Below are positions 6,014 to 10,984 of a DNA stretch of 64,000 nt, one piece after another. A program made the position numbers and the translations under genes. The notes beneath the pieces were generated by a model. It was not told the DNA's origin. It saw only the letters and a list, made by a program, of their open reading frames with translations, and searched no databases. Numbering within the stretch: position 1 is the first letter of the stretch; each line of letters starts with the position of its first letter. The stretch covers positions 1 to 64,000 of the forward strand of contig NZ_PVTL01000005.1 in NCBI RefSeq assembly GCF_003003265.1. Reading direction: 5' to 3'. Origin of the DNA: Glaciihabitans tibetensis (GTDB taxonomy: Bacteria > Actinomycetota > Actinomycetes > Actinomycetales > Microbacteriaceae).

Positions 6014-6742
6014 GTGGTGTGGCGTCGAATCACACACCTGGGGGCCATCGTGATCCGTGCTGCGTTAGACGTGTGCTCCGTGACGGTTCCGTCGGCATCC
6101 GGCACCACAAACTCCGGGGTGGCAGGAGGGCTCGCATCCACCGGTCTGGGCAATGTTGTCACCGTTCTCGTTGTCGCCGCGCTTCTGTTGCTCGCAGGCA
6201 CACTCGTGTTTGTTGTTCGCCCCCGGTTGGCCGCCCGCACGCATAAGCGTCAGGGCGCAGGCGCCGCCCTCGGCCTACTCCTGGTGGCCCTGGTCGCCGG
6301 TGGTGTTGTACTCACCCCGCAACCCGCCTCCGCCGTGACCACCACCGCCACCGCCACCCAATCGTGCGAGCTGTTCACCATCGACGACGTTGTGCGCGCC
6401 ACCAGCGCGGGTGCCGGGGCACTTCCCGGCGACACGGTGGAGCCCCTGGCTTTCACCATCAGCAACCCCACCCGCTTCCCCATCACGGTTGTTGTCGACA
6501 CCACGGTAACCCTGGATCCGGCCGGTGCCGCTGCGCTGTACCTGGCCGAGCTGTCCGACGGCGGCTCCGCGGTGCTCACCCGCGGCCCCCTCGACGCGGT
6601 GCCCTCCACCGCAGCCATCACCATCGCTGCGGGCGCCGAGCTCACCGTGAGCTATGCGCTCACCCTCGACCCCGCCGCAACCAACGCGGTGCAGGGTTCC
6701 GTTGTCGCATTCGACTCATTGATTTCCGCCTCGTCCGAGTAG
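6014..6742 (+). CDS. Membrane/secreted protein with sorting-signal-like N-terminus
   Basis: A 242-residue protein I cannot name. Residues 40-44 read LASTG and are followed by a strong membrane segment (47-68) and a basic run ending in RTHKR, which looks like a cell-wall sorting signal placed at the wrong end of the protein. A second membrane or signal-like segment (83-100) ends in PASA. The rest (about 108-242) is a beta-rich extracellular-type domain with one cysteine. The start is uncertain: GTG 6014 gives the longest form and GTG 6050 is an alternative. It is the first gene of the surface module and is followed closely by a SipW-type secreted protein, so export and a surface role are inferred from context. 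Confidence 0.55.
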   Translation: MVWRRITHLGAIVIRAALDVCSVTVPSASGTTNSGVAGGLASTGLGNVVTVLVVAALLLLAGTLVFVVRPRLAARTHKRQGAGAALGLLLVALVAGGVVLTPQPASAVTTTATATQSCELFTIDDVVRATSAGAGALPGDTVEPLAFTISNPTRFPITVVVDTTVTLDPAGAAALYLAELSDGGSAVLTRGPLDAVPSTAAITIAAGAELTVSYALTLDPAATNAVQGSVVAFDSLISASSE

Positions 6743-6797
6743 TCCAGACAACCCCACACTCCCGTTGCTCCTCGTGCTCCCCTTGAAAGGTTTACTC

Positions 6798-7385
6798 ATG
6801 ACTCCCACTTCCCCAGCCGCAGACACCACCACCGAGTCCGTCATTACGACTTCCCCCACCCGCGGCCGCCGACGCGCAGTTGTCGGCGCAAGCGCCGCAG
6901 CCGCGGTTGTGGCGATCGGCGCCGGTGGTTTTGCCGTCACCTCGGCCTACTTCACCGACCAGGAGACCATCACCGGCAACACAGTGGGCACGGCGACCCT
7001 CACCATCGGCACGGTGACCGGCATCCCCATCACGGTCGCCGACCTTCTCCCCGACCAGACGAGCGGCCCGGAGACCTTCACCTTCACCAACTCCGGCAGC
7101 GTCGACTTTGACTACAGCATCACCCTCGACAACGTTGTGGTCAGCCCCACCCAGACCCCCACCGACCTCGCCACAATCACCAGCTGGCTCGAAGTCACGC
7201 TTGCCTCGGGCACCAGCACCGACAGCGGTTCGCTCGCGAGCGTGCCGGAACTGGTGGGCGCCGGTACCGTCGCCCCCGGTGCCAGCGGAACCGCCACCAT
7301 CGAGGTTGGCCTCAGCGATACCGCCACCAACCTCGCCCAGGGACTCGACATCACGTTCGACGTCATCATCGACGCCGCCCAGTAA
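6798..7385 (+). CDS. SipW-dependent (TasA/camelysin-like) secreted protein
   Basis: A 195-residue secreted protein. After a basic patch RGRRR come a hydrophobic stretch (about 27-48) and the sequence AYFTDQETITGNTVGTATL. This is the hallmark of signal peptides handled by SipW-type signal peptidases, and the matching peptidase lies three kilobases downstream. The mature part is rich in Thr, Ser and Val and looks like the beta-sandwich of TasA-like proteins, which form surface fibres in Bacillus; fibre formation here is inference. ATG 6798 is preceded by GAAAGG. The protein has no cysteine. Confidence 0.75.
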   Translation: MTPTSPAADTTTESVITTSPTRGRRRAVVGASAAAAVVAIGAGGFAVTSAYFTDQETITGNTVGTATLTIGTVTGIPITVADLLPDQTSGPETFTFTNSGSVDFDYSITLDNVVVSPTQTPTDLATITSWLEVTLASGTSTDSGSLASVPELVGAGTVAPGASGTATIEVGLSDTATNLAQGLDITFDVIIDAAQ

Positions 7386-7442: not shown

Positions 7443-10400
7443 ATGATTCGCATTCGCACACGCGGTCGTCTTCGCGCAGCGCTGCCCACCGTGCTGACGG
7501 TGGCCTTTGGGGTGAGCCAGGTACTCGGTGGTGGTGGCGGCTTCACCGACCAGGCGACACTATCCGGAAGTAGCGCCGGCACCGCCACTCTGGCCGCCAG
7601 CACCCCCGCGCCGACAGGCGCCACGGCAACCTCCCTCGACCTGGCCTGGGACGCAGTTCCCGCGGGCAACACCGCTGCCGAATTTGCGCTGCAACGCTCC
7701 GCCAGCGCCGACGGCGCCAACCCCGCGACCGTCTACACCGGCACCGACTCGTCCGCGATCGACCCGGGCAACATACCCACGGAATTAGGCGCTAGAACCG
7801 TCACGGCCGTCAGCGTCAGCTCGTCGCGCGCCTGCGCCATCGCCGACGGTGCCGTGTATTGCTGGGGTGACAACTACTGGGGTGATCTCGGAGACGGAAC
7901 ATCCACTAACTCCTCGATCCCCGTCGCCGTTCTTGGACTCACCGGCAAAACAGCCACCGCAGTCTCCTCCAGCGACTATCACTCCTGCGCGATCGTCGAC
8001 GGCGCCGCGTACTGCTGGGGTTACAATTACCGCGGAATTCTCGGAGACGGCACAACCACCAATCCCTTCTCCGCAGTCGCCGTGGTCGGTCTTTCCGGAA
8101 AAACTATCACCGCGATTACGGTTGCCAGATACCACGCATGCGCCTTGGCCTCCGGTAGCGCTTACTGCTGGGGGATAAATTCGTCTGGCCAACTTGGAAA
8201 CGGAACCACCACCGACTCCATTACCCCGGTCGCCGTCACCAACCTCAGTGGCAAAACCATTACCGCAATCAGTGCCGGTCCCTTACATACCTGTGCAGTT
8301 GCCGACGGCATTCTCTACTGCTGGGGTGAAAACCGACTCGGGCAGCTCGGCAACGGCACAACCACAAACTCCACCACCCCGGTCGCCGTCACCAACCTCA
8401 GTGGCAAAACCATTACCGCAATCAGTGCCGGTTCCGACCATACCTGTGCGACTGCGGACGCAATCCTCTACTGCTGGGGAAACAACTCCTACGGGCAGCT
8501 CGGCAACGGCACAACCACACAGTCCCCGACCCCCGTCGCCGTCCCCGGCGTCAGCGGCAGAAACGTTAGCGTGATCTCCGCGAGCAATTACTACACCTGC
8601 GCGGTCGCTGATAGCACCGCGTACTGCTGGGGAAGGGATTGGCGCGACCAACTCGCCGGTGGAATGGTCTTCAGCTCGCTCACCCCCGTCGCCGTCCCCG
8701 GCCTCATTGGTGAAAACATCACCACCATCAGTGGCGGCGGAAGCAGCGCCTGCGTGCTCTTTGAGGGGTCGTCGTATTGCTGGGGCTACAACTCCTCGGG
8801 GGCTCTCGGAGATGGTTCGACAACCAACTCGTTTGTGCCCGTCGCGACATCTCCGATACCTGGCCAAGTCTGCGCCGCGGGTGCCACGTCGCTGACCTCA
8901 ACCCTTTGTTCGCTCACCCCGGACACCACCTACTACTACAAGGTCGACTACGGCATTGCGAACTGGACCGCCCCCCCTAGCGCCTGGGTCGCTGCCCGCA
9001 CCGCACCAGTGACGCTCACCGCGAGCGCTCCCGCGGCGGCGACCAGCGGCACCACGACCGTTGGCCTCGCCTGGGACGCGGCGCCCGCCGGCACCACTGG
9101 TGCCGAGTACACCGTGCAGCGCTCCACCTCGCCCGACGGCTCCGATCCCGAAACGGTGTACACCGGCACGTCGACCAGCACCACAGACCTGGGCAACATT
9201 CCGCCGGAGTTGCGCACCAAGGCCGTATCCACAATCGCCGTCGGCGATTACCAAACCTGCGCGGTCGCGGACGGCGCCGCCTATTGCTGGGGTGACAACT
9301 ACGCCGGACAACTCGGCAACGGCACCACCACAAACTCCAGCACCCCCGTCGCGGTCACCGGCCTCGCCAACAAAACCGTCACCAGCATCAGCACGGGAAT
9401 CAACCACTCCTGCGCGATCGCAGATGGCACCCCGTACTGCTGGGGCAGCAACGGCTATGGGCAACTGGGCAACGGCACCACCACAAACTCCAGCGTCCCC
9501 GTCGCCGTCTCCGTCCCCACGGTCGGGGCCGTCACGGAACTCGCCACAGGCTTGTCCCACTCGTGCGTACTCACCGCCGACGGTGCCGCCTACTGCTGGG
9601 GCTTTAACCGGACCGGGCAGCTCGGAAACGGCACAACAACAGACTCCAGCATTCCCGTCGCTGTTACCGGCCTCGCGGGCGAGGCCATCACCGACATCGC
9701 CGTCGGAAGCATCCACTCCTGTGCCGTGGCCACCAACGGCACCGGCTACTGCTGGGGATACAACGAATACGGGCAGCTCGGAAATGGCACAACCACAAAC
9801 TCCAGTACCCCCGTCGCTGTCACCGGGCTCGCCGGCACAACCATCACCGACATCGCCGCGGGGAACTCGAGCGCGTGTGCACTCACCTCCGACGGCATTG
9901 TCTCCTGCTGGGGCTATAACCTCGTCGGGCAGCTGGGCGACGGAACAACGGGGTATCCCACCGCTCCCGTCACCACGCCTGTCACCGTCGCCGGGCTCAC
10001 CGCCAAGTCCGTCACCGGCATCACCGTGGGCGGCGACAGCGCCTGCGCACTTATATCCGACGGCACCGCCTACTGCTGGGGTAACAACAATTACGGCCAA
10101 GTTGGCGACGGTAAGATCCAACACGTCAGAACCGCCGTGCCCGTCATCGGCCTCGCCGATGTGGTCGGCACAACCATCACGACCGTCACCACCGGCCAAT
10201 ACCACTCCTGCGCCGTGACCTCCGACGGCATCGCCTACTGCTGGGGCTTCAACGGGCGCGGCGAGGTCGGAAACGGTACAGCGGGACAGCCGGTGCGGGC
10301 TCCGGTGCGGATGACTCCGATAGCCGGCGTCGCGTGTGAGACGGGCGCAACGCAGTTCACCGCCACCACCTGCTCCCTCACCCCGGGCACCACCTATTAC

Positions 10401-10475
10401 TACCGAGTCGACTACACCGTCGGCACGCGCACGTCCCCGGCTGGTGCCTGGACCGCGGTGGCGACCCAGCCCTGA
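7443..10475 (+). CDS. Secreted RCC1-repeat protein with two seven-repeat propellers
   Basis: A 1010-residue exported protein. The N-terminus has a signal segment followed by GFTDQATLSGSSAGTATL, again the SipW-dependent type. It holds fourteen RCC1-like repeats, each with a YCWGxNxxGQLGNGT core, in two sets of seven (about residues 115-475 and 600-962), as expected for two seven-bladed beta-propellers. Each set is flanked by two halves of one fibronectin-III-like domain: LDLAWDAVPAGN...TVYTG before and CSLTPDTTYYYKVDY after. Each repeat carries two regularly placed cysteines that could form disulphides outside the cell. GGAAGG precedes the ATG. The stop overlaps the start of the signal peptidase gene. 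The ligand is unknown. Confidence 0.85.
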   Translation: MIRIRTRGRLRAALPTVLTVAFGVSQVLGGGGGFTDQATLSGSSAGTATLAASTPAPTGATATSLDLAWDAVPAGNTAAEFALQRSASADGANPATVYTGTDSSAIDPGNIPTELGARTVTAVSVSSSRACAIADGAVYCWGDNYWGDLGDGTSTNSSIPVAVLGLTGKTATAVSSSDYHSCAIVDGAAYCWGYNYRGILGDGTTTNPFSAVAVVGLSGKTITAITVARYHACALASGSAYCWGINSSGQLGNGTTTDSITPVAVTNLSGKTITAISAGPLHTCAVADGILYCWGENRLGQLGNGTTTNSTTPVAVTNLSGKTITAISAGSDHTCATADAILYCWGNNSYGQLGNGTTTQSPTPVAVPGVSGRNVSVISASNYYTCAVADSTAYCWGRDWRDQLAGGMVFSSLTPVAVPGLIGENITTISGGGSSACVLFEGSSYCWGYNSSGALGDGSTTNSFVPVATSPIPGQVCAAGATSLTSTLCSLTPDTTYYYKVDYGIANWTAPPSAWVAARTAPVTLTASAPAAATSGTTTVGLAWDAAPAGTTGAEYTVQRSTSPDGSDPETVYTGTSTSTTDLGNIPPELRTKAVSTIAVGDYQTCAVADGAAYCWGDNYAGQLGNGTTTNSSTPVAVTGLANKTVTSISTGINHSCAIADGTPYCWGSNGYGQLGNGTTTNSSVPVAVSVPTVGAVTELATGLSHSCVLTADGAAYCWGFNRTGQLGNGTTTDSSIPVAVTGLAGEAITDIAVGSIHSCAVATNGTGYCWGYNEYGQLGNGTTTNSSTPVAVTGLAGTTITDIAAGNSSACALTSDGIVSCWGYNLVGQLGDGTTGYPTAPVTTPVTVAGLTAKSVTGITVGGDSACALISDGTAYCWGNNNYGQVGDGKIQHVRTAVPVIGLADVVGTTITTVTTGQYHSCAVTSDGIAYCWGFNGRGEVGNGTAGQPVRAPVRMTPIAGVACETGATQFTATTCSLTPGTTYYYRVDYTVGTRTSPAGAWTAVATQP

Positions 10476-10984
10476 TGACCCCACGGTTTGCCCTGCCGGT
10501 GTGGCCGCGGGTGATTCTGTTGGCGCTCATCGCGCTTGTTGTGGTGACGCCCGTTGCGCTGCCGTCGGTCACCGGTACCCGTTGGATCGTGGTCGACGGC
10601 GGCTCCATGGAGCCCACTTTTGCGGTCGGCGACATCGTGATGGTCGCCCCACTGAACGCGCGACCGCTCGAGGTTGGGGAGGTCGTAACGGTGCGGCGCC
10701 GCGACGGCCAGCTCTACACGCACCGCATTACCGAGATCGCCAGTGCTGGCGCGATGACCACCAGGGGAGACGCCAATACGTTCAACGACCGCGACCCGGT
10801 GAGCCCCGCGGACATCGCGGGACGGGTGACCGGCGTGCTCACCGGTGCGCCAGCCGCCGTGGTGCGGGCTTCGGGTGAGCTGCCGCTGCGCCTCGCGCTG
10901 GCTCTCGGTGTGCTCGCGTTGTTTGTGCTTCCGGTTCGGAAACTCGAAAGCATACCGATCGGCGTTGCCGCGTCAAGCGCTTGA
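10475..10984 (+). CDS. sipW: SipW-type signal peptidase I
   Basis: A 169-residue membrane-bound signal peptidase of the endoplasmic-reticulum/archaeal type. The nucleophile is Ser44 in GGSMEPTF. The general base is His83 in LYTHRITE, in place of the lysine of ordinary bacterial enzymes. The acidic residue is probably Asp99 in RGDAN. Membrane segments are at about 12-32 and 138-157. In Bacillus SipW processes TasA and TapA. Here the two upstream genes carry matching signal peptides, so they are the likely substrates. The start codon overlaps the stop of the RCC1 gene (TGATG), showing coupled translation. Confidence 0.9.
   Translation: MTPRFALPVWPRVILLALIALVVVTPVALPSVTGTRWIVVDGGSMEPTFAVGDIVMVAPLNARPLEVGEVVTVRRRDGQLYTHRITEIASAGAMTTRGDANTFNDRDPVSPADIAGRVTGVLTGAPAAVVRASGELPLRLALALGVLALFVLPVRKLESIPIGVAASSA

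Follow-up and report, generated by a model that had tools for sequence, protein, structure and literature searches.

What fold is formed by the two pieces of sequence that flank a ring of RCC1 repeats, and what could such a protein be used for? The question is raised by a 64,000-nucleotide stretch of Glaciihabitans tibetensis DNA (contig NZ_PVTL01000005.1, positions 1 to 64,000; hereafter, the window), in which an intact open reading frame (ORF) with an ATG start, at positions 7443-10475 of the forward strand, encodes a protein of 1010 amino acids, the propeller protein. The initial annotation, made from the sequence alone, had proposed that each of its two propellers is inserted within a single domain of the fibronectin type III (FN3) kind. 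The analysis presented here makes it very probable that both propellers are complete RCC1 rings of seven blades, each sitting as an insertion within a single FN3-like beta-sandwich, and leads to a more tentative proposal on its function.

Two modules with an FN3-like piece on each side of the ring

The RCC1 family of Pfam (PF00415) matches 14 stretches of the ORF (468.5 bits, E-value 8.5e-144, cut-off 21.7), and the blade marker [YS]CWG appears in two groups of seven, the first at residues 139-445 with a spacing of 51, and the second at residues 614-932 with spacings of 51-56, leaving 169 residues between the last marker of the first group and the first one of the second. Upstream of each set there is a piece of around 58 residues containing LAWDA and VYTGT (the front), and downstream a piece of around 52 residues with two cysteines and the motif CSLTPxTTYYYxVDY (the back). 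These counts bear out the initial description of seven repeats per set, with an FN3-like front before and a back after them, and of an arrangement present twice in tandem. Identities between modules 1 and 2 amount to 36 of 63 positions in the fronts, 186 of 358 in the propellers and 29 of 52 in the backs, so that all three parts are 52-57% identical, and a duplication of the entire module is the probable origin. At the DNA level, the repeats show 60-75% likeness to the reference copies of the listed repeat families. No second relative of the protein was found when its own genome was searched at an E-value of 1e-3, and residues 1-33 gave no match to family models.

The blades themselves show two further properties. 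Two cysteines around nine residues apart (CA...YCWG type) are present in each of the 14 repeats of the window, and in the model of module 2 described below they sit on neighbouring strands wherever strands were assigned; each blade of an exported ring possibly holds a disulphide. Variability among the 14 repeats is highest at isolated residues, some next to the CWGxN core and others in loops, positions that, as far as can be read from the sequence, would suit ligand binding.

Front and back as probable halves of one discontinuous domain

Relatives were collected at the family level, where an RCC1-type match at 1e-20 was found in 40 of 398 genomes and a match to a profile of the joined halves at 1e-4 in 21. 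Both halves were detected in 21 proteins from six of these genomes (one in the genome of the window, six in G132, eight in G231, two in G019, three in G024 and one in G003), numbers that are lower bounds, with at most 12 candidates per genome scored with the profile and two with the protein at first look. As only six of the 40 RCC1-positive genomes are shown with the split layout, it is a minority form. The order front, RCC1 repeats, back is kept in the 22 units of these 21 proteins, 20 of which carry a single front and a single back, supporting that each half finds its complement on the other side of the propeller (or in another molecule) and that a pairing of back 1 with front 2 is not the rule. 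The halves are separated by 360-436 residues in 17 units and by 705-846 in the other five, and the repeat hits number 6-8 in single-unit proteins with a short insert, 11-14 in those with a long insert and 15 in the two-unit protein of the window. From these spacing classes and repeat numbers, the insert varies by about one whole ring; some relatives hold two rings' worth of repeats inside one FN3, and the window protein duplicates the whole FN3-plus-ring module. Every split ORF was read and no insert other than RCC1 repeats was found, L152:8742-11285 being covered only by the half-profiles, its repeat count and a partial print.

Of 12 proteins that had no part in the building of the half-profiles, 11 were matched by both of them with E < 0.01, and two of the 22 fronts are weak (in a database of 21, 9e-3 for L156 and 2e-3 for L157). 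With a pattern for the back, 21 matches were obtained, all with a second cysteine 5-14 residues upstream, and the 22nd back (L152:8742-11285), missed by the pattern, has both cysteines by eye. The chains end 32-38 residues from the cysteine of the pattern, back 1 of the window excepted, and the conserved pair sits where the chain exits the ring. Left out of the counts were L114:14994-17000, an end-truncated duplicate of L156, L150, a 115-residue ORF with only a back, L113, whose reading frames are cut up, and repeats of the same genes (L001, L083-L085, L118-L122, L125, L139-L144). At the order level the joined profile matched five of 396 genomes at 1e-6, the window's own included, and the other four gave near full-length matches and no pair of half-matches, a search in which weaker halves would be missed. 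Viral contigs contained one weak relative, and phage records gave 22 matches, all below 60% identity. In G052 and G122, genomes of the window's genus, neither a protein relative at 1e-20 nor a joined-profile match at 1e-4 was detected, and the gene therefore looks accessory.

The nature of the halves was approached with family models. The intact protein has no FN3-like Pfam model above cut-off and no NCBIfam match at E 0.1; what Pfam detects is limited to the end of the FN3-like model Pur_ac_phosph_N, in short matches adding up to 28.2 bits (cut-off 30). When the halves of module 1 were joined, the same model (PF16656) matched with 30.9 bits (cut-off 30) over positions 7-86 of its 93, or with 22.8 bits in the other form of join, and the halves of module 2 gave 27.1 or 17.7 bits depending on the form. 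The backs alone already score 20.1 and 22.4 bits, over the model end only, so that the gain from joining is modest for module 2. The fronts alone gave nothing or a partial SusE match, and both the swapped order and the natural stretch from back 1 to front 2 gave partial family matches only. Full-length matches to FN3-like families were thus found only once the halves were joined in order. With 11 joined units at E 0.1, eight matched Pur_ac_phosph_N and three fn3, versus six and one when swapped.

The insertion site was approached with two forms of join, one placed after the last strand-like segment of the front (J1) and the other using the back's own upstream segment (J2), and the profiles of J1, J2, the swapped order and each half alone were scored on 33 intact FN3 domains. 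J1 won over the swapped profile in all 33, over both single halves in 29 and over J2 in 27, in a set biased towards the joined profile by the 19 domains that had been found with it. Among the other 14, which come from other loci and were found with a profile of those 19, J1 won over the swapped profile in 14, over both single halves in 10 and over J2 in nine. Among six proteins that contain intact matches, four have domains such as CBM96, laminin-G, metallophosphatase or endonuclease/exonuclease, and two are without a Pfam match. When these profiles were run against solved structures, the best E-values were 0.0021 for J1, 0.0024 for the back alone, 0.096 for the swapped order, 0.16 for J2 and 0.17 for the front alone. 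With the back alone, most matches were to monobodies and fibronectin and some to adenovirus hexons; chain positions and the usual fibronectin numbering suggest that a different strand region is aligned in them. With these structure controls being mixed, we relied on the comparison with intact domains. The J1 junction falls directly before the motif LxPGTxY, at what we take to be the E-F loop of the usual FN3 strand naming, and the loop just before this motif is the best-fitting insertion site on the basis of these profiles, with most strands predicted before the ring and the last two after it.

AlphaFold2 models were obtained for module 2 (residues 518-1010, 42 sequences) and module 1 (residues 45-526, 34 sequences), with the FN3 flanks covered by only two sequences per alignment, those of the two window modules. 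The mean predicted local distance difference test (pLDDT) values were 84.9 and 83.7, respectively, and values of 90 or above were reached by 341 of 493 residues in module 2 and by 333 of 482 in module 1. Residues 74-444 of the module 2 model matched UVR8 (Z 58.6, 363 residues aligned, root-mean-square deviation 1.5), and other solved matches of this ring were HERC2 (Z 49.5), RCC1 (Z 42.9) and BLIP-II (Z 29.7, 249 aligned). The predicted fold is a closed seven-bladed ring, and its match to solved propellers, which involves no part of the flanks, indicates a ring that is already complete by itself. Besides the ring, four strands of at least three residues are present in each model, two per half, in thinly aligned blocks with pLDDT values of 28-77. 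Structure prediction of both modules had been put forward initially as the way to reveal a single sandwich with the propeller emerging from a loop; complete rings were indeed obtained, and the flanks stayed at low confidence without a confident single sandwich. Adding 12 intact FN3 domains to the alignment placed all 12 on the propeller. Taken together, the order of the units in the relatives, the comparison of joined and swapped halves, the ring-sized steps of the insert and the complete rings support one discontinuous FN3-like domain per propeller, as had been proposed.

SipW-like and TasA-like neighbours and the weighing of alternatives

The propeller gene is found between two genes that resemble those of a fibre-building system (Table 1). 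The ATG of the peptidase gene downstream overlaps the TGA of the propeller gene (TGATG), and its product fits the archaeal-type signal peptidase I model TIGR02228, its score with the Bacillus SipW model NF046067 being 58.1 bits, below the cut-off of 190. The TasA-like gene is directly upstream, and its match to Peptidase_M73 (21.7 bits) is just under the cut-off of 22.5. The segment FTDQATLSGSSAGTATL of the propeller protein and FTDQETITGNTVGTATL of this neighbour are identical at 11 of 17 positions, a score reached by none of 2000 shuffles, and a tblastn search with a longer front query detected the neighbour with an E-value of 2e-6. A shared cleavage-site motif could also explain this likeness. 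Further upstream, ORF 6014-6742 begins with a LASTG-like segment and a hydrophobic stretch, followed by a second hydrophobic stretch and a secreted-looking domain, and has a sub-threshold match to the NCBIfam sortase-anchor (LAVTG) model at residues 39-69 (14.9 bits, cut-off 27); translation may actually begin at a more internal position, or the ORF may be a fusion of two gene pieces.

Table 1. Features of the propeller gene and its neighbours; the joined profile used for the E-values was built including these window sequences
Feature	Positions	Strand	Basis
TasA/camelysin-like gene with SipW-dependent-type signal	6765..7385	+	TIGR04088, 25.9 bits, cut-off 19
Signal-peptide-like N-terminus, residues 1-33	7443..7541	+	Basic then hydrophobic stretch, read from the translation
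Putative donor-strand-like start of the mature protein, residues 34-50, FTDQATLSGSSAGTATL	7542..7592	+	Likeness to the TasA-like neighbour
FN3-like front half 1, residues 50-107	7590..7763	+	Joined-profile match 7593-7763, E 2.2e-13
RCC1 propeller 1, seven repeats, residues ~113-470	7779..8852	+	Markers, Pfam, model ring blocks mostly at pLDDT 87-98
FN3-like back half 1 with Cys pair, residues 471-523	8853..9011	+	Joined-profile match 8865-9005, E 2.2e-11
FN3-like front half 2, residues 525-582	9015..9188	+	Joined-profile match 9018-9188, E 2.3e-15
RCC1 propeller 2, seven repeats, residues ~588-958	9204..10316	+	Markers, Pfam, model ring against UVR8
FN3-like back half 2 with Cys pair, residues 959-1010 (chain end)	10317..10472	+	Joined-profile match 10347-10472, E 1.1e-11
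SipW-like signal peptidase I gene	10475..10984	+	TIGR02228, 77.8 bits, cut-off 51.85

The neighbourhood was surveyed at 15 loci from six other genomes. Relatives of the peptidase were found at L109, L112, L113, L114, L151, L154 and L156, and weakly at L111 (five of the six genomes), and separate TasA-like relatives at L109, L113, L114, L151, L152, L154 and L156. In three split proteins, two in L152 and one in L153, a TasA-like domain is fused in front of the FN3 unit. At L109, L114, L152 and L156 (genomes G132 and G231), at least two split FN3-RCC1 genes are clustered, with several genes for SipW-like peptidases nearby. At L113 (6500-13100), RCC1 frames and a weak FN3-like back (E 9e-3) lie beside TasA-like and SipW-like genes and are broken by frame changes; these frames are either decayed copies or the result of sequencing errors.

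In Bacillus subtilis, according to two papers (PMC9674648, PMC10151520), TasA polymerises through an N-terminal donor strand (residues 28-38), and TapA, with a complete Ig fold and first residues like those of TasA, is proposed as the starter of the fibre. By analogy, we propose the function of a putative binding propeller displayed on a TasA-like fibre, an assignment that we hold as possible, somewhat short of probable. The propeller protein would be exported, with cleavage by the SipW-like peptidase of the adjacent gene, and the freed N-terminal strand, resembling that of the TasA-like neighbour, would plug into the TasA-like fibre by donor-strand complementation, in the manner proposed for TapA. 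The FN3 frames would then hold the rings outward, and the variable blade positions could be where a ligand is bound, be it on a surface, on a partner cell or in the matrix. As a whole, the nested anatomy together with fibre display is the explanation that we consider best, with moderate confidence.

Several data weigh against this explanation. On the side of the anatomy, the best fn3 (PF00041) score, that of the joined halves of module 2, was 20.7 bits, missing the cut-off of 25; 19 of the 33 intact domains used for comparison came from the joined-profile search itself; the back alone does practically as well as the in-order join on solved structures (0.0024 and 0.0021); and the FN3 part has the block pLDDT of 28-77 already mentioned in both models. 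On the side of the function, the model for SipW-dependent signals matched neither the propeller protein (NCBIfam, E 0.1) nor any of ten split relatives, and no SipW-like relative was found at the G024 loci.

The alternative that survives best keeps the anatomy and takes the ring as a free secreted binder or inhibitor, and not as part of a fibre. The model ring does resemble BLIP-II, described in PMC9218822 as a secreted binder of the RCC1/BLIPII group, but the rings of UVR8, HERC2 and RCC1 fit it better. The lack of a match to the SipW-dependent-signal model in the propeller protein and the ten split relatives favours this free form. A location on fibres or on the cell surface is what the TasA-like gene upstream, the SipW-like gene overlapping the stop codon and the fusions to TasA-like domains point to, and we consider the free form unlikely.

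Two alternatives to the insertion itself are improbable, and equally so. In the first one, front and back are separate small domains or disordered linkers at the sides of an ordinary RCC1 ring, as the low pLDDT of the flanks in both models and the existence of RCC1 proteins with an intact FN3 beside the repeats (L027) would allow; however, only two strands are predicted in the back, and two strands are too few for a sandwich, besides which front and back co-occur in order in the 22 units and their join behaves as FN3. In the second one, the halves form FN3-like sandwiches between molecules by domain swap, linking the proteins into chains. Because the ends of a closed propeller lie near one another, pairing inside a single chain is favoured, against what could be expected from a TasA-like neighbour that belongs to proteins assembling by strand exchange (PMC9674648). 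Finally, a rearranged domain formed between the rings by back 1 and front 2 (adjacent at residues 471-582), which would leave front 1 and back 2 without partners, is highly improbable, as 20 of the 21 proteins have no second front, the natural stretch gives partial family matches only, and the swapped order, with weak FN3 matches of E 0.096 at best, loses to the in-order join in 33 of 33 domains. The insertion of each ring within one FN3-like domain therefore stands as the preferred anatomy.

Relation to known systems and significance

The rings share their repeat family and fold with the RCC1-like propellers UVR8, HERC2, RCC1 and BLIP-II, whose solved chains match the ring only, whereas those of the window are flanked by FN3-like halves and, at the sequence level, differ from them in the two cysteines of each blade. 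Intact bacterial FN3 domains, such as those of L123 and L133, are fitted by the in-order joined profile across the junction, but are contiguous, whereas the split units hold between their halves a ring of around 370-440 residues, or two of them. Propeller insertion is also found in the prolyl oligopeptidase family, in a hydrolase, where both the host fold and the propeller family differ. An FN3 domain with an insert is found in FnIII-2 of the insulin receptor; PMC2577065 describes that insert domain as not crystallisable and taken as disordered, in contrast to the folded ring predicted in the window protein. With B. subtilis tapA-sipW-tasA (PMC9674648, PMC10151520), the window shares a gene for a SipW-like peptidase, a TasA-like gene and an accessory protein with a TasA-like start, but this accessory protein carries RCC1 rings, the gene order differs, the SipW-dependent-signal model is unmatched, and the parallel with TapA is one of analogy. 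Thus, precedents exist both for an FN3 domain that contains an insert and for a propeller placed within another domain; in our literature searches, no report of an FN3 domain enclosing an RCC1 ring came up, and this combination seems new.

With a propeller nested in a loop of FN3 across 21 proteins, and an apparent doubling of either the whole module or the ring alone, the finding implies that insertion, besides stringing in a row, is a way of combining two common folds. A loop of FN3 would be a natural attachment site for a large rigid cargo, and a domain split in this way escapes the routine Pfam and NCBIfam annotation of the intact protein. A wider idea, which we regard as doubtful, is that the TasA-like fibres of a family of high-GC bacteria end in, or start from, interchangeable RCC1 rings held in FN3 sockets, with tandem diverged copies as a repertoire of binders. 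If true, a socket could carry either one ring or two, or a pair of sockets could follow each other, the whole being plugged into the fibre through the N-terminal donor strand. The gene neighbourhood described here makes such a TasA-type display system outside Bacillus directly testable.

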